From assembly GCA_946538495.1 (NCBI GenBank), contig CAMNGP010000004.1, positions 1 through 46,048 on the forward strand: DNA of 46,048 nucleotides. The letters are read 5' to 3'. Both the position numbers and the translations under genes were made by a program. This stretch comes from an uncultured Candidatus Saccharibacteria bacterium. GTDB taxonomy: Bacteria > Patescibacteriota > Saccharimonadia > Saccharimonadales > Saccharimonadaceae. Below, piece by piece: positions 2 through 40,357 of this stretch (within the stretch, counting starts at the first letter, position 1; every line of letters begins with the position of its first letter). The notes beneath the pieces were generated by a model. The model saw nothing but the letters and a program-made list of their open reading frames with translations, was not told where the DNA came from and did not search any database.

Positions 2-2686
2 AATCAAGAAAAACTCACAAATTCCGAATCTCTAAATCCTGACTCCAATTCAAAAATTGGCGCAAAGCTTCTAACTCTAAACGGTTTTCAAGGGCACTTT
101 CATGAACCGGTCGAGCGCGCCTTTCAAAAAGCGAGAGCAAAAGGCGAGAGGTTAATTGGGAATAATGCAGAACGACGTAATCAAAGCTATCTAAACCGTC
201 TACAAAACTTAATAAGTAGACACGGTAACCGTTTAGAACAAAGATTGTGGGATGAATCGGTGAATCAATTAATTATCTCACCAGATAATATTACAGAAGA
301 TTACTGGCGTTCACAAGAGCAAATACTGCGCGATAACGGACAAGGCCGTACTTTAAATGATTACGAAAAACAGTTCCTCATCGAAGATATTCAAAAAAAT
401 CAACGCGAAAGCCTAAAATCGTGGTCAGATTATCTTGGTAACGAAGACTCACCTTATCCAATTTGGTTTAAAGTTTACGCTTGGGATGGAGTATCCAAAA
501 TGGGTGTATTCGACAAAAACAAGCAACAGTTTGCAAAACGAGATCGGCATACAGTAGCTCCTTACCCTAAGCTAAACCCTGCAACGCTTGCCAAGGTTTA
601 TGGCGTTATTTCAGATTTTTACAATCAATCCGACCAAAGTCGCTACAAAGAAAGTCCTGAGCGCAATACGGAGCTAGAAGCACTAGTTAAATCTGGCAAT
701 TTCAATAAGCTTTATTCCAAAATCCTCCTTAGTGAAAAGGCCATCCTCGAAACTCCAGAGAGAACCGAAGATATCCGAGGTGAATGGATAGAATATTTAC
801 CAGGAGACGAAGAAAAACTTGCCGAAGCCGCCGAAGGCACACCATGGTGTGTAGCAGACCCCGGAACTGGACGCAATTACTTACAAACCGGAAACTATAC
901 GGGATATCAGGAATATGATTCCGAAAGTAAAGCCAAATTTATTCTTTTTCACCTATACGATTCAGAAACCAATAATCTCGCCAGCTCCGCTTGTGCCTCA
1001 ATCCGTCTTGGGCAAGACGGCGAAGTCGCCGAGATATCCGGCCTAGACGATGGCCAGGCCCTCGAAGATTCATTAGTTCCTATCGTAGAAGCAAAAGTTC
1101 GCACACTTCCTGGTGGCGAAGAATTTTTAGAAGCTTTCGCTGATAAAAAACAACTCATAGCCATGGATCACAAAATGCAAAGTGGTGAAGATTTAACAAA
1201 AGAGGAGCTGGAATTTCTCTACGAAATAAACCGCCCAATTAAATCTCTTGAAAAGTACATAGAAGACCCAAGATTAGAAGAGTTAAAAGAGGCTTATGGA
1301 ATAAAATATGCCCTAGAACAAGGAATAGATGCTAATAGTCTAATTCAACATCTAGATCTATATTATATCGCCAGAAACCTAGACACTCTTATCTCTTATG
1401 GTGCAGATATTGATATGGATGATTTAGTCTCAAGGATGGATTCAGATGATATCGCCAGAAACCTAGACACTCTTATCTCTTATGGTGTAGATATTGATAT
1501 GGATGATTTAGTCTCAAAGATGAGCTCATCTAATATCCCCGAAAACCTAGACACCCTTATTTCCCATGGTGCAAATATTGATAAAATAGTCTCAAGGATG
1601 TATTCGGGTTATATCGCCAGAAACCTAGATACTCTTATCTCTCATGGTGCAGATATTAATAAAATAGTCTCAAGGATGTATTCAGGCGATATCACCAGAA
1701 ACCTAGACACTCTTATCTCTTATGGTGCAGATATCAATAAAATGGTCTCAGGGATGTATTCAGGCGATATCACCGAAAACCTAGACACCCTTATCTCTTA
1801 TGGTGCAGATATTGATATGGATGATTTAGTCTCAAGACTACATCCATATGATATCCCCAAAAACCTAGACACTCTTATCTCTCATGGTGCAGATATCAAT
1901 AAAATAGTCTCAGAGATGGATTCAGATGATATCCCCAAAAACCTAGACATCCTTATCTCTTATGGTGCAGATATTAATAAAATAGTCTCAAAGATGTATT
2001 CAGGCGATATCACCAAAAACCTAGACACTCTTATCTCTTATGGTGCAGATATCAATAAAATGGTCTCAGGGATGTATTCAGATGATATCACCAAAAACCT
2101 AGACACTCTTATCTCTTATGGTGCAGATATCAATAAAATGGTCTCAGGGATGTATTCAGATGATATCACCAGAAACCTAGACACTCTTATCTCTTATGGT
2201 GCAGATATCAATAAAATGGTCTCAAGACTACATCCATATAATATCACCAAAAACCTAGACACCCTTATCTCTCATGGTGCAGATATTAATAAAATAGTCT
2301 CAAGGATGAATTCGGGTTATATCGCCAGAAGCCTAGACACTCTTATCTCTCATGGTGCAGATATCAATAAAATAGTCTCAAGGATGGATTCAGATGATAT
2401 CACCAAAAACCTAGACACCCTTATCTCTTATGGTGCAGATATTAATAAAATAGTCTCAAGGATGAGAGCATATGATATCACCTATAACCTAGACACCCTT
2501 ATCTCTCATGGTGCAGATATTAATAAAATAGTCTCAAGGATGAGAGCAGATGATATCACCAAAAACCTAGACACCCTTATTTCCCATGGTGCAAATATTG
2601 ATATGGATGATTTAGTCTCAAGACTACATCCATATGATATCACCAAAAACCTAGACACCCTTCGTCGTCACGGCGCAAACGTCTAA
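2..2686 (+). CDS. Long helical-repeat protein, 5' end outside window
   Basis: The reading frame is open from base 2 to the TAA at 2684-2686, about 894 visible residues, so the gene starts left of the window. A TTG at 245 could be read as a start, but the frame continues upstream without a stop and reads as ordinary acidic/basic protein. The N-terminal part is non-repetitive and has a GTPWCVAD motif near 836-862, resembling the WC(T/V)A motif of some phage and plasmid proteins. From 1370 the protein is about 17 tandem units of 26 or 28 residues with core NLDTLISYGADINKIVSRM, probably helix-turn-helix pairs forming an ankyrin-like solenoid. There are no membrane segments in the visible part. 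Function unknown; a protein-interaction role is inference. Adjacent units are nearly identical in DNA, which points to recent expansion or gene conversion. Confidence 0.85.
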   Translation, partial: NQEKLTNSESLNPDSNSKIGAKLLTLNGFQGHFHEPVERAFQKARAKGERLIGNNAERRNQSYLNRLQNLISRHGNRLEQRLWDESVNQLIISPDNITEDYWRSQEQILRDNGQGRTLNDYEKQFLIEDIQKNQRESLKSWSDYLGNEDSPYPIWFKVYAWDGVSKMGVFDKNKQQFAKRDRHTVAPYPKLNPATLAKVYGVISDFYNQSDQSRYKESPERNTELEALVKSGNFNKLYSKILLSEKAILETPERTEDIRGEWIEYLPGDEEKLAEAAEGTPWCVADPGTGRNYLQTGNYTGYQEYDSESKAKFILFHLYDSETNNLASSACASIRLGQDGEVAEISGLDDGQALEDSLVPIVEAKVRTLPGGEEFLEAFADKKQLIAMDHKMQSGEDLTKEELEFLYEINRPIKSLEKYIEDPRLEELKEAYGIKYALEQGIDANSLIQHLDLYYIARNLDTLISYGADIDMDDLVSRMDSDDIARNLDTLISYGVDIDMDDLVSKMSSSNIPENLDTLISHGANIDKIVSRMYSGYIARNLDTLISHGADINKIVSRMYSGDITRNLDTLISYGADINKMVSGMYSGDITENLDTLISYGADIDMDDLVSRLHPYDIPKNLDTLISHGADINKIVSEMDSDDIPKNLDILISYGADINKIVSKMYSGDITKNLDTLISYGADINKMVSGMYSDDITKNLDTLISYGADINKMVSGMYSDDITRNLDTLISYGADINKMVSRLHPYNITKNLDTLISHGADINKIVSRMNSGYIARSLDTLISHGADINKIVSRMDSDDITKNLDTLISYGADINKIVSRMRAYDITYNLDTLISHGADINKIVSRMRADDITKNLDTLISHGANIDMDDLVSRLHPYDITKNLDTLRRHGANV
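1370..2683 (+). repeat. Tandem 78/84-bp coding repeats (17 units)
   Basis: There are sixteen full units and one partial unit, in two lengths: 26 aa (ADINK[IM]VS form) and 28 aa (DIDMDDLVS form). Units differ mainly at the residue before NLDTL (R, K, E, Y or S), at Tyr/His before GAD, and in the variable MYSGD/MDSDD/LHPYD/MRAYD segment. Third-position identity between neighbours is very high. Confidence 0.95.
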
Positions 2687-3492: not shown

Positions 3493-3501
3493 TGTTATAA
3501 T
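3493..3501 (+). promoter_or_regulatory. Leaderless promoter of murD (TGtTATAAT, 6 nt)
   Basis: The extended -10 ends 6 nt before the ATG at 3508, placing the expected transcription start on the start codon. No SD is present. Confidence 0.75.
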
Positions 3502-3507
3502 TAAACT

Positions 3508-4758
3508 ATGAAAATTGCTATCCTCGGCTACGGCAAAGAAGGCAAATCCCTAGAAGCCTACTTCAAGCAGCATTACCACGATTTAGAATGTGACATTTTT
3601 GACAATTTTTCCTCAGACGAAATTCAAAAAAAGGATTTTTCCACCTATGATATTGTTTTTCGTAGCCCGTCTGTCCCGCCCCTACATCTAAACAACGAGT
3701 CCTCCGCCACTAAATACTTCTTTGACCATTGCCCTTGCCGAATCATCGGCGTTACCGGCACCAAAGGTAAAGGCACTACCTGCTCCTTTATTGACGCAAT
3801 TTTAAAATCCCTCAAGTTATCTTCGCATCTAGTCGGCAATATCGGCTACCCCGCTATAGATATCTTGGATGATCTCAGCAAAAATGACGTCGTGGTTTTT
3901 GAAATGTCGAGTTTTCAGCTTTGGGATCTTACCAAATCACCCCAAACCGCCGTGGTTTTACGTATTGAGCCAGACCATCTAAACGTTCACAAAGATTTCA
4001 ATGATTACGTAAATGCCAAAAGCCATATTGCCGAATTCCAGACCCCAAATGATAATTTGATTTACTTTAAGAATAACCCTAGCTCCGTTCAAATTTCCCA
4101 AAAAAGCCCTGGCCATAAGTTCCCATATCCGTTGGATAATCCTTCTGACGCGCTTAAAGACGTACTAAATTCTATCGAGGTCCCGGGTGACCACAACAAA
4201 GAAAACGCCGAGGCAGCGCTCATCACCGTCGCCGCTTTTCTGGGCACTCCACTTGATAGCTTAATTGCGAAGCATAGATCAGAGCTAAAAGATGCGCTCA
4301 GTAGCTTCAAAGGCCTACCGCACCACCTCGAATTCGTTCGCACGCTCAATGACGTTGATTATTACGATGATTCTTTTTCTGCATCTTCGCCATCCCTAGA
4401 AGTCGCAATCAAAGCTTTCCCTGATAGACCAGTTATTCTCATAGCTGGCGGCAAAGATCGTGGACTCGACCTCACACCGCATAAAAACGCTATATTTAAA
4501 GCACCAAATCTCGCCAAAGCTATCCTGATTGGCGAAACCAGCCAAGCTCTAGCCCAAGACGCCCCAGAAAACAAATTCATTATCGAAGAATCATTAGAAA
4601 ACGCTGTCCATGATGCGCGAAAACTAGCCGAAGGGCTTGCATCATCGACCGCAAAACCTGTAGTTTTACTCAGTCCCGGCGCCGCTAGTTTTGATATGTT
4701 TAAAGATTTTTACGAACGTGGTGAATTATTCCAACAATACGTAAAGGAGCTAAAATAA
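3508..4758 (+). CDS. murD: UDP-MurNAc-L-alanine:glutamate ligase (MurD/MurD2 type)
   Basis: 416 aa, slightly shorter than E. coli MurD. This cytoplasmic peptidoglycan precursor enzyme adds glutamate to UDP-MurNAc-L-Ala using ATP. Visible features: N-terminal Rossmann GYGKEGKS (7-14), ATP loop GVTGTKGKGTT (81-91), the Mur-ligase EMSSFQL segment, EPDHLNVH, and C-terminal SPGAASFDMFKDF matching the Ser and Phe that hold glutamate in MurD. The usual NDSKATN motif reads DDSFSAS, so the Lys that normally sits there is missing. The next gene, joined by a one-base TAATG overlap, looks like MurL. In Xanthomonas, MurL epimerises the terminal L-Glu added by MurD2, so this enzyme may use L-Glu rather than D-Glu (inference). 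Confidence 0.9.
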   Translation: MKIAILGYGKEGKSLEAYFKQHYHDLECDIFDNFSSDEIQKKDFSTYDIVFRSPSVPPLHLNNESSATKYFFDHCPCRIIGVTGTKGKGTTCSFIDAILKSLKLSSHLVGNIGYPAIDILDDLSKNDVVVFEMSSFQLWDLTKSPQTAVVLRIEPDHLNVHKDFNDYVNAKSHIAEFQTPNDNLIYFKNNPSSVQISQKSPGHKFPYPLDNPSDALKDVLNSIEVPGDHNKENAEAALITVAAFLGTPLDSLIAKHRSELKDALSSFKGLPHHLEFVRTLNDVDYYDDSFSASSPSLEVAIKAFPDRPVILIAGGKDRGLDLTPHKNAIFKAPNLAKAILIGETSQALAQDAPENKFIIEESLENAVHDARKLAEGLASSTAKPVVLLSPGAASFDMFKDFYERGELFQQYVKELK

Positions 4759-6005
4759 TGTTTGAATTTAATAGTTTTGGATTTGATTACCTCACGTCCA
4801 CCGCCGAATTCTATTATCAGGGCCCCACCGGCATTCGTTTTTTGGAAAAAATCGAATTTACACCCGCCAAGCGCCCAATCACTCACGACCAACAAAAATT
4901 TTTGATGCGCGCTCTGTTTTTGGCTTTTATTGCATTGGGTACCTCCTACTACAAAGCTAACCCCACCCGCAACGTTAAACTGCATGTCAATATAAATCAA
5001 GCCCAAGCTGATTTCTTTACGCGGATTTATCAAGAAGGGCTTAGCCAATTTGCTTTCGAAAATCACCTTACTCGTAATGATTTGGCTAAATTCGAGCTGG
5101 TTCAGGACGCTCCAAGCAATCTTGATAATCAACTAAATCACGATAGTGTCATTGCTAAAGTCGATAATTATTTGACAGATCAAGACCTTGGTTTACCTTT
5201 GGTTCTTCTTAGTGGCGGCAAAGATTCTCTTCTGACGGCCGAAAAACTATCTCTTGACAATATTAGATTTAAATCTGTCTACATTTCAAACAATGACGCC
5301 GATTTACCAGAGATTGTCTCGTTCTATGGTGAACCACTAGTTATCCGTCGCCATATCGACAAAGAAGCCCTCAAAAAAGCCGGTGGTCTCAATGGCCACG
5401 TACCAATTACGCTTATCAATGAATCTCTAGCACTCGTTCAAGCTATTTTGGCGGATTCCCACGAAATATATCTCGGACTCGGCCGCGAAGGCGAAGAACC
5501 ACACGCCTATATTGATGATCTCCCAGTCAATCACCAATGGTCTAAAACTCCCGCCACTCAACAGGCCCTTAAATCTTATATTCAAAAATGCGTTTCATCA
5601 GACGTCAAAATCCAATCACTTCTTGAAAACAAATCCGAGCTCGAAATTGCCGGCGAATTTGTTAAATTATGTTGGGATAAGTTCGGTAGCCGTTTTTCGT
5701 CCTGTAACGTAGCAAACTACAAACAAGGAGCCGACAATCAATCGCTTAGATGGTGCGGCAAATGTCCAAAATGTGCCAATTCATTTCTCCTGTTTGCTCC
5801 TTATTTGCCCTTAGAAAAACAGCCTTTTGATGGTCGTGATTTATTCCTGGATCCAGATCTCACCGATATTTTTAAAGGCCTCCTTGGCGTAGACGGCCAT
5901 ATTAAGCCATTCGAATGCGTCGGCACTATCGCCGAGCTTCGCGAAGCCTATTCAAAGCGCGACAATAGCTACAGCGCTCTGCCGTTTGAAGTTCCAAAAT
6001 CATAA
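4758..6005 (+). CDS. murL: PP-loop protein, probable MurL glutamate epimerase
   Basis: 415 aa. The ATG overlaps the murD stop (TAATG) and is served by an AAGGAG SD inside murD, so the two are translationally coupled. An ATP-pyrophosphatase loop LLSGGKDSLL lies near residue 150, and a Cys cluster WCGKCPKCANSF near residue 330. Both features, and the position directly after a Mur ligase, fit UDP-MurNAc-L-Ala-L-Glu epimerase (MurL), which uses ATP to invert the terminal glutamate. The family assignment is from memory of MurL and its gene order; the alternative is another PP-loop enzyme such as a tRNA-thiolation or amidation enzyme. Convergent with the M16 peptidase gene. Confidence 0.65.
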   Translation: MFEFNSFGFDYLTSTAEFYYQGPTGIRFLEKIEFTPAKRPITHDQQKFLMRALFLAFIALGTSYYKANPTRNVKLHVNINQAQADFFTRIYQEGLSQFAFENHLTRNDLAKFELVQDAPSNLDNQLNHDSVIAKVDNYLTDQDLGLPLVLLSGGKDSLLTAEKLSLDNIRFKSVYISNNDADLPEIVSFYGEPLVIRRHIDKEALKKAGGLNGHVPITLINESLALVQAILADSHEIYLGLGREGEEPHAYIDDLPVNHQWSKTPATQQALKSYIQKCVSSDVKIQSLLENKSELEIAGEFVKLCWDKFGSRFSSCNVANYKQGADNQSLRWCGKCPKCANSFLLFAPYLPLEKQPFDGRDLFLDPDLTDIFKGLLGVDGHIKPFECVGTIAELREAYSKRDNSYSALPFEVPKS

Positions 6006-6048: not shown

Positions 6049-7320
6049 CTAAAAGTTTAATCTAGTTTCTAACCCAGATATCACAGCTTTTTCAGTCGAA
6101 GATACCGCCGCAAACCCTCTGATGCCAGACCCAGCAAATTCACGTGCCAATTCTATCATTTTTGACTTATCAATTCCTCGAATTAGTCCAGGCATATTAT
6201 CATATTTTTGAATCGTCTCGTTTGTGAAATAGCCATCTGCATAATAATCCGCAATCTGCCCCACTGTTTGTGCTCCCATCTGCAATCTACCCAATGCATA
6301 AGATTTTGCTGCAGCAAAATCTTTATCCGAAATCTTACCATTCAAGGCGTTTGTAAGCTCTAGCTGAATCAAGTCAAAAAGTTCATCGGCATTTTCGACA
6401 TTAACTTCGCCGTCAAAATCCCAATACGAGCTCTTGGCGTTACTTGCCACCGAGCTCCCCATCCCATACACCAAACCTTTTTTACGTGCCGTACCAAAAA
6501 TCCGTGAGTTTGTTGTGCCATTTAAGATATGATTAAGACAATTCATCGCAAACACTTCATCGGGCTCCAAATGTCTTGGCGTCACCAAAGAAAACCCAAA
6601 TGTAATATTTGACGCATCTTTTCTCCTAATCGAAACTGCCTCCGAAGAATGCAAATCGGCTGTAGGAATCTCAAAAGCCTCGCCTTCTTTTAGATCCCAG
6701 TTTTCAAGCATTCGCATTATCTTTCGCTTTCGCCCTCTAATCTTCCCAGCGATAATAAACATCATGTTTTTTGCCGTGTGGGTACGTCGATAATGTTCAC
6801 GAATATCTTTGAGCTCAATGTTCTGAATAGTTTTTAGTCTCTCTGGAACATCCAAAATATCTTCACCCACCGCTTGCTGCACGCGTGGCCAAAGCAAACG
6901 ATAGTAATCATTCATATAGCCAGTCAATTCGCTCCGCACATTAGATTTTTCAGATTTTAGCTCCTCTTCATTAAATCTTGGCTCACAAATCGATACTCGC
7001 TGCAACTCCATAATCCTTTCCCACTCAAAATCCGCACACTCCGTCTCATAACACACCGAAATATCGCTAGTCCAAGCATTGTGATATGCGCCGTTTTTTG
7101 TAAATTCCGCCTCAAAAGCTTGCTCATCACGGTATTTTGCATTCGCACCAAACGCTAAATGCTCCACCACATGAGGAATCTCATAAACATCTTTATTCTT
7201 GGCATATAGCATCCCAGCACGAAACTGTACACGAGTAGACATCACGCTAGCGCCAGGTATGTTTATTAATAGGCCTCTGGCGCCATTTTTAAGATGTATT
7301 TCCTCAACTGAATGCTTCAT
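6049..7320 (-). CDS. M16 family zinc metallopeptidase
   Basis: 423 aa. The inverted zinc motif HVVEH is at residues 50-54, with an acidic helix (EEELKSEKSNVRSEL) about 75 residues later that would supply the third zinc ligand. The single-chain length of about 420 aa fits bacterial M16 processing-peptidase-like proteins. No signal peptide is seen, so it is predicted cytoplasmic or peripheral. It follows secA in the same direction with a 43-nt gap. The upstream DNA has AT-rich TATTAT/TATAAT-like boxes but no SD and no box at the 6-nt position seen for other genes, so its promoter is unclear. The substrate cannot be inferred. Confidence 0.85.
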   Translation of the reverse strand: MKHSVEEIHLKNGARGLLINIPGASVMSTRVQFRAGMLYAKNKDVYEIPHVVEHLAFGANAKYRDEQAFEAEFTKNGAYHNAWTSDISVCYETECADFEWERIMELQRVSICEPRFNEEELKSEKSNVRSELTGYMNDYYRLLWPRVQQAVGEDILDVPERLKTIQNIELKDIREHYRRTHTAKNMMFIIAGKIRGRKRKIMRMLENWDLKEGEAFEIPTADLHSSEAVSIRRKDASNITFGFSLVTPRHLEPDEVFAMNCLNHILNGTTNSRIFGTARKKGLVYGMGSSVASNAKSSYWDFDGEVNVENADELFDLIQLELTNALNGKISDKDFAAAKSYALGRLQMGAQTVGQIADYYADGYFTNETIQKYDNMPGLIRGIDKSKMIELAREFAGSGIRGFAAVSSTEKAVISGLETRLNF

Positions 7321-11885: not shown

Positions 11886-12626
11886 TTACCGCATTTCGTT
11901 GTATAGTTTTTGCCAATCAGCCAAGTGTAGATCGCCTGGCCGAGCATTTAAATCAAATTTTAGCAATTCGAAAACTCGCTTTAATTCTTCTTTAGATTTT
12001 ATCCCAGACAGATTATGAATCAATTTTTTGCGTGGGGCCTTAAAACCCTGGCTAATTAAATAAAAAACTTCGTCAGTGACCACTGGGGCATGTGGCTCCA
12101 AAATCACAACTTGACTATCCACCTTTGGCGGTGGCGTAAACTCTTCGCGCGGCACCACTGGGCCAACTGCCACCTTAGCCCTATTTTTTGCAAAAAGCGA
12201 GAGCATAGTTTCTTTTTCGTCAATTATACGTTCGGCTACCTCTTTTTGTAATAACAAAACCACACGACTAGGCAAATTCGACAGTCTCAAAACCTTCTCA
12301 ATAATCGGACTCGTAATATAATACGGTATATTCCCAGCCACCACATACGACCCGTTAATTTTACCAAAATCATACTGCAAAATATCCCCATGGATCACTT
12401 CTAGATTCTTGCCAGGAAATGACTTCGGCAAATTTGTCGAAAGCCTTTCGTCAAATTCTACCGCAATCACCTTATTGAATCGCTTTAATAGAGAAGACGT
12501 CAAAAACCCTAGTCCTGGACCAATTTCCACGCACAGCTCACCTCCACCAGTCAAATCAGCAATTTCCTCCAAAATCTGGCGATTTTTGAGCCAATGTTGC
12601 CCTAATGATTTATTAGTACCAACCAT
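11886..12626 (-). CDS. ksgA: 16S rRNA dimethyladenosine transferase RsmA/KsgA
   Basis: 246 aa from the ATG at 12626 (MVGTNKSLGQHWL). An earlier in-frame ATG at 12686 lies deep in the upstream gene and adds 20 unlikely residues. KsgA dimethylates two adjacent adenines in helix 45 of 16S rRNA during small-subunit assembly. Visible motifs: SLGQHWLKNRQI, SAM site VEIGPGLGFLTSSLL, NIPYYITSPII (catalytic N-I-P-Y), EFTPPPKVDSQVV, and the C-terminal domain. The start overlaps the end of the Rpf-like gene by 14 nt, giving the rpf-ksgA order known from Actinobacteria. A GGTGGT SD-like stretch precedes the ATG. Confidence 0.95.
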   Translation of the reverse strand: MVGTNKSLGQHWLKNRQILEEIADLTGGGELCVEIGPGLGFLTSSLLKRFNKVIAVEFDERLSTNLPKSFPGKNLEVIHGDILQYDFGKINGSYVVAGNIPYYITSPIIEKVLRLSNLPSRVVLLLQKEVAERIIDEKETMLSLFAKNRAKVAVGPVVPREEFTPPPKVDSQVVILEPHAPVVTDEVFYLISQGFKAPRKKLIHNLSGIKSKEELKRVFELLKFDLNARPGDLHLADWQKLYNEMR

Positions 12627-13647
12627 GTGCATACCACCAAGCAATCGCTTGGCTCCATCCGCCGTAGCGCCCATTAACATACCCAATCATCCAGCGAATC
12701 TGGGTTACCGGATTCGTCTCCCAGTCTGCCCCCACCGAAGCCATCTTGCTACCCGGCAAAGCCTGCGGAATCCCATATGCACCCGAAGATGCATTCCTAG
12801 CATCATACCTACATCCGCTCTCTCGATAAATCAAATCAATCGCATACGACAAATCAGCTTCACTCACCCCTGCCTGACGTGCCCAATTTGCACAAGTTTC
12901 TTGCTCTGGCCGCACGGACTTTTTCGCACCAACCGCCACTACTCTTGATACCGGCTGTCGCACAACTTCCTCGCCAGCCTTTTCTCTTGATACTTCTTGG
13001 TTATCTTTATATAACACATTATAATACACCCGTTTCATCCCTACTTCACCTAGCTGTTTAACCTCAGAAGTTCCGGCCGCCATGTTATAATCGGGCACCT
13101 TTTCTTCGCCAAACGGAATCTCTTCCTCCACCGTGAGTGTACGACCACCATTTCGCTTAATCTCATAAATATTGGCCGTACCAGCCTCTAAGAAATGGGT
13201 GTTTGGCACCATTGCCATCTCGTCGCCGTCATACAAAGTAATTCCAGCATCCTCCGCAATCCTTTGAGTGTCGTAACTTGCAGTCATTAAGTATTTTTCA
13301 GTCTTACCATCTTTTACCACCACCGGACGCGCTCTATAGATATTAACGAAAAAATCATCAGCATTAATCTCGGAATCAATTTTAGGTTCCACAATGTCGC
13401 CTTGATTAATAATAATATTCGCCCGTTCCAAAGCCTCAGCTACTGTTTTAGCCTCAGTCCTTACAATTAGCTTATCGCCCTCGTCATAAAAAGTCACAAA
13501 ATGAGAATCAGATTCCGCGTACAAACCATCACTACCTTCAGCAAAAGTAGATCTAACGTTATTTTTAATTGCGAAACCAAAAAACAACACTAAAGCAATA
13601 GTACCGACTAAAATCAGAGCTTGATCGATCTTTCTCGAAAGCCTCAT
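12613..13647 (-). CDS. Rpf-like protein: DUF348/G5 and lytic transglycosylase domain
   Basis: 344 aa. Basic N-terminus then one membrane anchor (about 11-27); two DUF348-like segments (FVTFYDEGDKLIVRTEAKTV and YLMTASYDTQRIAEDAGI); a G5-like strand region (EEEIPFGEEKVPDYNMAAG, then GKxGMKxVxY-like EVGMKRVYYNVLYKDNQEV); and a C-terminal lysozyme/SLT-like domain (DLIYRESGCRYDARNASSGA, then YGIPQALPGSKM) with the catalytic-type Glu in YRES. The layout resembles RpfB of Actinobacteria, a peptidoglycan-cleaving resuscitation factor, but with an SLT-type catalytic part. Probably anchored outside the membrane. ksgA starts within its last codons, and a probable small RNA lies just upstream. Confidence 0.88.
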   Translation of the reverse strand: MRLSRKIDQALILVGTIALVLFFGFAIKNNVRSTFAEGSDGLYAESDSHFVTFYDEGDKLIVRTEAKTVAEALERANIIINQGDIVEPKIDSEINADDFFVNIYRARPVVVKDGKTEKYLMTASYDTQRIAEDAGITLYDGDEMAMVPNTHFLEAGTANIYEIKRNGGRTLTVEEEIPFGEEKVPDYNMAAGTSEVKQLGEVGMKRVYYNVLYKDNQEVSREKAGEEVVRQPVSRVVAVGAKKSVRPEQETCANWARQAGVSEADLSYAIDLIYRESGCRYDARNASSGAYGIPQALPGSKMASVGADWETNPVTQIRWMIGYVNGRYGGWSQAIAWWYAHGWY

Positions 13648-19503: not shown

Positions 19504-20100
19504 ATGCGTAACCCTAACCTATCGCAACATTTCTTAAAATCTCCAAAGCTAGCACTATTTTTGATTGGTCATTCAAATCTCAAGAAACGTGACACCGTCA
19601 TAGAAATCGGCGCCGGTTCAGGAGTAATCACCAGCGCCTTATGTTATCGCGTAAAGCAAGTTATAGCTATTGAGCCAGACCATCAAACAGCCCAAAAACT
19701 CAGAGAAAACCTCACCAAAAGAAACATCACAAATGTGCAAATAGTAGAGGAGGACTTTTTAGATTACGAATTGCCTACTACTCCATATAAGGTATTCAGT
19801 AATCCACCCTTTCATCTTAGTTCCAAAATCGTACACAAACTCATCGAAGCTGACAATCCACCAGAATCGTTTTATCTAATACTGCAAAAACAATTCGCCC
19901 TAAAGCTACTAAATACCGATCGTCACTACACTTCAAAATTAGGCCTAGAGTTAATTCAAAACTATCAAACTAAGATACGATTACCTCTGAAACCTACAGA
20001 TTTTACTCCACCACCCGCCGTGCCAACGGTGTTATTTGAAGCCAAAAAAATCTATTTCCCTTCCAAAAATGCCCCAGATTGCCTCGACCAAAGTTTATAA
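19504..20100 (+). CDS. Erm-like 23S rRNA adenine N6-methyltransferase
   Basis: 198 aa. Erm/KsgA superfamily: N-terminal SQHFLKSPKL, SAM motif I VIEIGAGSGVITSAL, acidic IEPD, EEDFLDY, and catalytic motif IV SNPPFHLSSKIV (N-P-P-F). The 'SQHFL' start and N-x-x-F favour Erm over RsmA, and a clear RsmA gene exists at 11886. Erm enzymes methylate A2058 of 23S rRNA and confer macrolide-lincosamide-streptogramin resistance; that substrate here is inference. At 198 aa it is shorter than typical Erm (about 245), with a reduced C-terminal domain. It lies one base after hisS, with no SD visible. It overlaps the convergent ABC exporter gene by 49 bp. Confidence 0.8.
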   Translation: MRNPNLSQHFLKSPKLALFLIGHSNLKKRDTVIEIGAGSGVITSALCYRVKQVIAIEPDHQTAQKLRENLTKRNITNVQIVEEDFLDYELPTTPYKVFSNPPFHLSSKIVHKLIEADNPPESFYLILQKQFALKLLNTDRHYTSKLGLELIQNYQTKIRLPLKPTDFTPPPAVPTVLFEAKKIYFPSKNAPDCLDQSL

Positions 20101-38806: not shown

Positions 38807-40357
38807 TCAAATGCCAGTTAATGGCACGATGTCCGCGCCCAAATGTCGAAGCCTTGCTGCAAAATCCTGATATCCGCGATTAATCGGATAAATATTGCGC
38901 AGAATCGATTTACCAGGTGCCGCCAACATACCTATTAACACAACCACTGCGGGGCGCAAGGCTTGTGGTGCCACTAGCTCTGCTGGCCGCCAATTAGTTG
39001 GTCCCTCAATATAGACACGATGTGCATCCAAAAGCTCAACCTTCGCGTTTAAATTAGTTAACTCCGTAATATATACCGCACGGTTTTCAAAAACCCAGTC
39101 ATGTATTAACGTGCGCCCCTCCGCCGTTGCCGCGATTACCGAGAAGAAAGGTAAATTGTCAATATTTAGCCCCGGAAACGGCATCGGATGAATCTTGTCT
39201 ACCGGTGCTACTAATTTGGATTTCTTTATCTTTAAGTCTATTAGTCTAGTCCTGCCGTTAGCTGAAAAATACTCTTCTGATTTTTCAAATTTAGCATTCA
39301 TATTCTTTAATACTTCCAACTCTAATTCCAAAAACTCAATCGGTGCTCTAAGAAGCGTAATTTCAGAATGCGTAGCTAGTGCCACCGCGATAAAGCTCAT
39401 TGCTTCGATTGGGTCCTCCGACACACTATATTCTACATCACAGTTTATCTGCGAACGCCCATAAATAGTTAATCTTGTAGTGCCAATCCCTGTAATTTTT
39501 ACACCAAGTTTTTCCAAAAAGAAGCACACGTCTTGCACCATATAATTCGGCGAGGCACCCACAATCGTAGTTTTACCTGGGAACATCGCTGCCGCCATCA
39601 AAACGTTCTCTGTTACCGTATCGCCGCGCTCTGTTAAAATAATATATCTCTCAGATTTATCCTGCAAAGCTTTTTGATCTACTTCCACCTCATAAAAACC
39701 ACTATTACAAGTTGCATCAACCTTCAATCCATAGCTTTCCAAAGCTTTTAGATGCGGCTCTACCGTACGAGTGCCAAGCGAGCATCCTCCAGCGTATGGG
39801 ATCCTAAATTTGTTGTAACGATGTAGCAAAGGCCCCAAAAACATAATAATCGAGCGTGTCCTTCTTGCGGCCTCCACATCCATTTCGTCTAATTTCAATT
39901 CACGCGGTGATATAATTTCTAAATCACGATGGCGGTTTTGCCAATGACATTTTACGCCAATCGACTCTAAAACCTCAATTATTCTAAACACTTCTTCAAT
40001 CCTTGCCACCCGATGCAAGACGGTTTTTCCAGTATTAAGTAGTGCTGCACAAAGCAAGCCCACAGCAGCATTTTTCGACGTGTTCACAGTAATCTCACCA
40101 GATAGTTCCTTACCGCCAACTATCCGAAAGCTTTGCGATGCCGAGTCGTTTATAGAGAGAATCTGCTTTCCTAGTGCCTCAGACAGCTTTTTTACCATCT
40201 CTAAAGAAATATTTTGGCTTCCCTTCTCAATCCTATGAATGGCCGATTGCGAAGTTCCCACCGCCTTGGCTAAATCCTCTTGAGTCCAGCTTTTCTCAAG
40301 CCGCATATGCTCAATAGTTTCGCCAATAAGTTGTTGATAAGTACCTACCTTTTTCAT
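38807..40357 (-). CDS. murA: HTH-fused UDP-GlcNAc enolpyruvyl transferase (MurA)
   Basis: 516 aa, about 90 more than normal MurA. Residues about 8-65 are an XRE/Cro-type helix-turn-helix (TQEDLAKAVGTSQSAIHRIE and flanks). From about 75 on it is MurA: KN at 95-96, RRTRSIIMFLGPLLHR, active-site Cys192 in AGGCSLGTRTVEPHLKALE, DKIHPMPFPGLNIDNLPFFS, and a final GYQDFAARLRHLGADI. MurA commits UDP-GlcNAc to peptidoglycan synthesis. The same chain could therefore bind DNA and regulate genes, or the HTH could serve protein contact (inference). Cys at the fosfomycin-binding position is kept. Confidence 0.92.
   Translation of the reverse strand: MKKVGTYQQLIGETIEHMRLEKSWTQEDLAKAVGTSQSAIHRIEKGSQNISLEMVKKLSEALGKQILSINDSASQSFRIVGGKELSGEITVNTSKNAAVGLLCAALLNTGKTVLHRVARIEEVFRIIEVLESIGVKCHWQNRHRDLEIISPRELKLDEMDVEAARRTRSIIMFLGPLLHRYNKFRIPYAGGCSLGTRTVEPHLKALESYGLKVDATCNSGFYEVEVDQKALQDKSERYIILTERGDTVTENVLMAAAMFPGKTTIVGASPNYMVQDVCFFLEKLGVKITGIGTTRLTIYGRSQINCDVEYSVSEDPIEAMSFIAVALATHSEITLLRAPIEFLELELEVLKNMNAKFEKSEEYFSANGRTRLIDLKIKKSKLVAPVDKIHPMPFPGLNIDNLPFFSVIAATAEGRTLIHDWVFENRAVYITELTNLNAKVELLDAHRVYIEGPTNWRPAELVAPQALRPAVVVLIGMLAAPGKSILRNIYPINRGYQDFAARLRHLGADIVPLTGI

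Follow-up and report, generated by a model that had tools for sequence, protein, structure and literature searches.

Gene pair and its surroundings

The window, i.e., the whole stretch of 46,048 nucleotides analyzed here, belongs to a Candidatus Saccharibacteria draft genome (G000; 0.58 Mb in 15 contigs, 79% complete). Two adjacent genes lie on its plus strand: murD2 (3508..4758), which encodes a MurD-family ligase of 416 amino acids, and murL (4758..6005), which encodes a 415-amino acid protein of the MurL glutamate epimerase family. Read directly from the DNA, the murD2 stop overlaps the murL start in TAATG (4756..4760, plus strand), with one base in common to the TAA (4756-4758) and the ATG (4758-4760), and AAAGGAG, the likely murL ribosome binding site, is located inside the end of murD2 (4743..4749, plus strand) with a spacing of 8 nt to the ATG; translational coupling of murD2 and murL is therefore plausible. 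A promoter scan gave matches no more numerous than in shuffled sequence. There is a TATAAT at 3496-3501, 6 nt ahead of the murD2 start and with no matching -35 box; its placement would suit a leaderless transcript.

A preliminary description of this DNA had read the pair as a Mur ligase with an altered motif coupled to a PP-loop protein with WCGKCPKC. The open reading frames are exactly as described: the window MurD has DDSFSAS where E. coli MurD has NDSKATN, and SGGKDS and WCGKCPKC are both present in the second protein. In profile searches, the window MurD reached 278.7 bits against TIGR01087 (MurD; cut-off 211.95) and thus belongs to the MurD family. The proposed comparison of the second protein with MurL gave a match to NF041275 (E 9.4e-61, 205.6 bits, residues 2-398), with no other relevant profile matched and no better family found. 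Please note that this score falls short of the curated NF041275 cut-off of 700 bits; that cut-off is reached by none of the 380 genomes of our phylum draw, indicating that it is the limit of a Xanthomonadales-specific model and not that of the family. The named organisms with the closest MurL are Candidatus Saccharibacteria sampled from rumen, gut, and the environment. A chance pairing or a chimeric contig was considered and ruled out, since relatives repeat the pair with identical neighbors.

Elsewhere in the window, 245-2686 (plus strand) encodes an 813-amino acid protein in which near-identical repeats (NLDTLISYGADINKMVS...) form a long array that looks ankyrin-like, and there are two KsgA/Erm-type rRNA methyltransferase genes, of which the one at 11886-12686 (minus strand) looks like KsgA and the shorter one at 19504-20100 (plus strand) may be Erm-like.

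Motifs and predicted fold of MurL

The PP-loop SGGKDS of MurL spans residues 152-157 (5211..5228, plus strand), and G153-S157 are invariant in both MurL alignments. A zinc-like site of the form C(x)16CGxCxxC is predicted, with Cys316 (5703..5705, plus strand) as its first ligand and WCGKCPKC (residues 332-339; 5751..5774, plus strand) also assigned to it; Cys316 and WCGKCPKC are both near-invariant. Outside this motif, Cys387 (5916..5918, plus strand) is invariant in 110/110 rows. A Pfam search of the window MurL returned no domain and no significant QueC match, and phmmer against the PDB returned no match; relatives surfaced solely by fold search with the AlphaFold2 model (pLDDT 92.6, pTM 0.92). 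The highest similarity was to QatC, with a Z of 19.0 over 329 residues, i.e., almost the whole length including the N-terminal part, followed by QueC (Z 13.2) and Cap9 (Z 12.2), with other PP-loop proteins at 7-9. The fold similarity of the PP-loop domain together with SGGxDS places the window MurL among the QueC-like PP-loop proteins. For comparison, the cysteine motifs are C(x)8CxxCxxC in QueC and C(x)19CGxCxxRR in QatC, and MurL goes unmentioned in the 2026 QueC family survey from which they are taken (PMC13329287). The window MurL thus resembles QueC, QatC, and Cap9 in its predicted fold, SGGxDS, and C(x)nCGxCxxC, whereas by homology it would act on a UDP-muropeptide.

The QueC reaction includes ATP-dependent activation of a carboxylate. 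MurL has reportedly been published as a protein without known domains, and its discoverers are said to have proposed adenylation of the L-Glu α-carboxylate. We infer a QueC/QatC-like active site for MurL from the structural model, which would be fitting for ATP activation of a carboxylate; a requirement for ATP and the release of AMP have been reported for MurL (PMC8788868). In such a reaction, MurL would adenylate the α-carboxylate of L-Glu, epimerization would then take place at the acidified α carbon, where Cys387 is a candidate for the acid/base, and the last step would be hydrolysis. The QatC/QueC-like model, in this way, offers a concrete active-site hypothesis for MurL.

Exclusion of MurI and linkage to MurD

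In the phylum draw (380 genomes, sampled evenly; MurL called on a strong match, MurI on E<1e-25), MurL occurs in 58 genomes, MurI in 115, and both in none, against 17.6 expected (Fisher p 1e-10, relatedness ignored). The family draw gave MurL in 64/199 and MurI in 81/199 genomes, and both in two against 26 expected (p 6e-16, relatedness ignored). MurI and MurL near-completely exclude each other. The two overlap genomes also fit this rule, because one of the two enzymes in each is without active-site residues. G438 has MurD-MurL-MurI in one locus (L315, G438:C2:760500-768000) and its MurI reads GSTQ instead of GCTH, while G442 keeps MurI and has a distant MurL-like protein with a GGGKDG PP-loop (the last Ser is gone) and no MurD beside it. 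The G438 MurI has lost its second catalytic Cys, and this locus is possibly a transitional state. With MurL at such frequencies in the phylum and the family, the expectation of the preliminary description that the route would be unusual for a reduced genome does not hold.

Of the 58 MurL loci in the phylum draw, 51 have MurD beside or fused to MurL. These comprise 11 fusions with MurL first, 32 loci with MurD directly downstream, and eight with MurD upstream; among the other seven are contig ends and a second copy. Fusions of the reverse order, MurD first, were found in five further family members. Where genomes of the family have MurI, it usually lies next to MurD in convergent orientation, so that the gene beside MurD is MurI or MurL in turn. 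One contig filed as a Bifidobacteriaceae MAG (L154) bears a Saccharibacterial MurD-MurL pair and is probably mis-binned.

MurD pocket residues follow the partner enzyme

In E. coli MurD, Lys348, Thr321, Ser415, and Phe422 contact D-Glu mimetics (PMC3527612), and R358K, at the Lys348 site, is part of the switch published for X. oryzae MurD2 (PMC8788868). The window MurD has Ala292 at the site of Thr321 (codon 4381..4383, plus strand), Arg318 at the site of Lys348, i.e., Arg358 of X. oryzae MurD2 (4459..4461, plus strand), and Phe401 at the site of Phe422 (4708..4710, plus strand). We aligned 160 MurD proteins, 57 rows from MurI genomes, 96 MurL-linked rows, and seven further rows, the MurI labels being assigned by genome and not always by adjacency. 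Thr321 together with Lys348 (E. coli numbering) was found in 57/57 MurI-genome rows and 0/96 MurL-linked rows, and also in the seven further rows, six of which are from genomes with neither enzyme and one of which is the stand-alone second MurD of G469. Site 348 is Lys in all 57 MurI-genome rows and Arg in 78/96 MurL-linked rows, and site 321 is Ala or Ser in all 35 main-clade Saccharibacterial MurL-linked rows. At site 422, in the Saccharibacterial set, Phe occupies 35/35 MurL-linked rows and Tyr or Val 40/40 others. The G469 genome (L333, L286) contains a fused MurD-MurL of the Ser/Arg type in addition to its stand-alone MurD of the Thr/Lys type.

When all columns of the Saccharibacterial set were scanned with no prior choice, perfect separation of states was obtained at 321 and 422. 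Within the window's genus, 11 of 416 MurD columns separate the MurL and MurI states, including 321, 348, and 422, and the chance of at least three of the five named pocket positions being among the separating columns is p 1.3e-4 (hypergeometric). On a MurD tree built without the signature columns, the partner of MurD changes at least 11 times, and the independent pairs on well-supported branches agree with the signature in 7/7 cases (sign test p 0.016). As judged from these alignments, the discriminating changes in MurD are Thr321 to Ala or Ser, Lys348 to Arg, and Phe at 422.

The altered motif that served as a clue in the preliminary description is indeed changed; its loss of Lys (K319) is not diagnostic, and the change of Thr321 to Ala with Lys348 to Arg is. 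K319 was dropped as a diagnostic residue, as Ile or Phe stands there in MurI-genome rows too. The same applies to the site of E. coli Asp182 and X. oryzae Glu197, where the window MurD has Asp156 and so carries only one, the Arg358 site, of the two published switch residues of X. oryzae MurD2: Asp is found in 48/96 MurL-linked MurD, Glu is also common in MurI-genome MurD, so that within this phylum the site is no marker of the group. Arg at the Lys348 site alone is no proof of L-Glu use, because streptococcal MurD has Arg there too (GGLDRG in 3lk7). Since E. coli MurD, a D-Glu enzyme, in addition has Phe at 422, the residue code is to be read as holding for this phylum only.

The same locus with and without MurL

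Loci of the window's genus keep SecA, an M16 peptidase, and MurD together, and MurL is present or absent. The M16 peptidase-like gene (YfmF/YfmH-like; 6049..7320, minus strand) is a marker of the conserved neighborhood outside the pathway; whether or not MurL is present, most g1 loci examined have it next to MurD or to the MurD-MurL pair. The identity of the peptidase is 81-91% for one set of congeners and 60-67% for a second set. MurL is found at the SecA-M16-MurD locus in the window, G109, G157, G461, G519, and G547, and is missing at the same place in G287, G472, G498, G531, G551, and others. In the MurL tree, the window MurL falls in a 35-row Saccharibacterial clade (support 100), and MurL trees roughly track MurD in this clade. 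The MurI of the genus belongs to another MurI clade than that found elsewhere in the family, and it does not lie next to MurD. The simplest reading, with a direction suggested by unrooted, quick trees, would be that MurL was lost, another MurI was reacquired, and MurD reverted. Genus g8 has a second, separate import of MurL and MurD2. The tree implies repeated switching, probably with returns to MurI included, and suggests that the lineage may have switched between the L-Glu and the textbook routes several times. These comparisons indicate that the MurD-MurL pair evolves as a switchable module, in which the MurD pocket follows its partner from MurI to MurL and, apparently, back.

D-Glu sources and alternative explanations

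The window's genome has one MurD. Its assembly, at 79% completeness, contains no MurI above cut-off and no member of PF01063 (the D-amino-acid transaminase family), and five MurL congeners that are 98-100% complete (G109, G157, G461, G519, and G547) agree with the murI absence that had been named as a check, having no MurI and at most a weak paralogue. Among the other Mur enzymes, the genome has MurA (38807-40357, minus strand, in the window) and MurC (L004); the draft yielded no MurE, which we read as incompleteness because all seven congeners searched have it. The MurA carries a fused N-terminal XRE-type helix-turn-helix (helix-turn-helix at ~11-65, MurA at 75-510), an unusual fusion for a cell-wall enzyme. 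MurD with neither MurI nor MurL occurs in five near-complete congeners (G287, G490, G506, G531, and G537), where it is of the Thr/Lys type, and also in other genomes of the phylum.

The weak paralogue could in principle supply D-Glu and make MurL redundant. This MurI-like protein (G000:C2:22505-23161, i.e., L002:1504-2166) matches glutamate racemase at full length but weakly (34 bits), and most of the genus keeps it, whether or not a true MurI or MurL is there as well (congeners L124, L125, and L320-L327). However, its first catalytic Cys is missing in all copies examined (AN where MurI has ACN), that of G157 has lost the second as well, and both are retained in every true MurI examined from the phylum; moreover, it coexists with true MurI in G472, G498, and G551, which argues for a paralogue with another role. 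It is therefore not a likely racemase, and we regard this source of D-Glu as extremely unlikely. The idea that this reading frame is a decayed murI left after the arrival of MurL was likewise rejected, since it coexists with true MurI in those three congeners and forms its own clade.

Cultured Saccharibacteria are epibionts, and the window MurD could be an ordinary D-Glu enzyme that receives D-Glu or muropeptides from a host, with another role for the MurL-like protein. The five congeners with MurD and neither MurI nor MurL suggest that an outside supply may exist in the genus, but these carry Thr321/Lys348 where the window has Ala/Arg, and MurL adjoins or is fused to MurD, excludes MurI, and conserves its active-site motifs; we consider host supply very unlikely. 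Given the patchy distribution and the draft state of the assembly, one might also take the pair for a recent import or a mis-binned contig that is atypical of the organism. The probability of this appears close to negligible, as the SecA-M16-MurD-MurL synteny recurs in congeners with flanking proteins 82-94% identical and MurL sits inside the well-supported Saccharibacterial clade. We hold it highly probable that the window pair represents the MurD2-MurL route in a Saccharibacterium. The preliminary description had proposed this route, L-Glu addition followed by epimerization, and the MurL profile match, the MurI/MurL exclusion, and the pocket co-variation argue for it, next to the gene identities, the coupled arrangement, and an assembly with no recognizable MurI. 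The ligase would add L-Glu, and MurL would then invert it to the D form; that the window proteins catalyze the MurD2 and MurL reactions is what we would expect by analogy with the known enzymes.

Relation to known systems and implications

MurD2 (XOO_1320) and MurL (XOO_1319) are known from Xanthomonas oryzae, Micromonospora and Salinispora have confirmed orthologues, and the L-Glu route is published for some Gamma- and Alphaproteobacteria and rare actinobacteria (PMC8788868); weak orthologues are reported in cyanobacteria and eukaryotes (PMC5808125). A search of the open literature gave no relevant paper linking MurL with Saccharibacteria, Patescibacteria, or CPR. The window pair is like that of X. 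oryzae in its two families, their adjacency, the Arg at the Lys348/Arg358 site, and the lack of a recognizable MurI or D-amino-acid transaminase. It differs in that its MurL is ~30-33% identical to Xanthomonadales and actinobacterial MurL, its MurD has Asp rather than Glu197, its group has Ala/Ser where the Xanthomonadales and Micromonospora copies examined keep Thr321, and its relatives include fusions as well as cases in which this same locus has lost MurL. With the canonical MurD and MurI of E. coli, most bacteria, and Saccharibacterial relatives, it shares the MurD fold, and its MurD locus is orthologous to that of MurI-bearing congeners, whereas its pocket is changed at 321, 348, and 422 and MurI is absent from the assembly. 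The locus is a further example of a known route; the fusions, the presence and absence of MurL, the residue signature, and the repeated switching are the new pattern.

With moderate confidence, we favor a broader reading in which Saccharibacterial MurD would act as a chirality switch, having moved between D-Glu and L-Glu several times and in both directions through residues 321, 348, and 422 at each change of partner between MurI and MurL, with some lineages being Ser321/Lys348, unlike Xanthomonas, and in which MurL would be a QueC/QatC-type adenylating enzyme turned epimerase. The L-Glu route appears common in the Candidate Phyla Radiation, a group that the open papers found leave out. Close loci with and without MurL in one genus amount to a natural mutagenesis experiment, and their comparison, where the earlier approach relied on a few mutants, names the MurD residues that likely set the chirality of glutamate.
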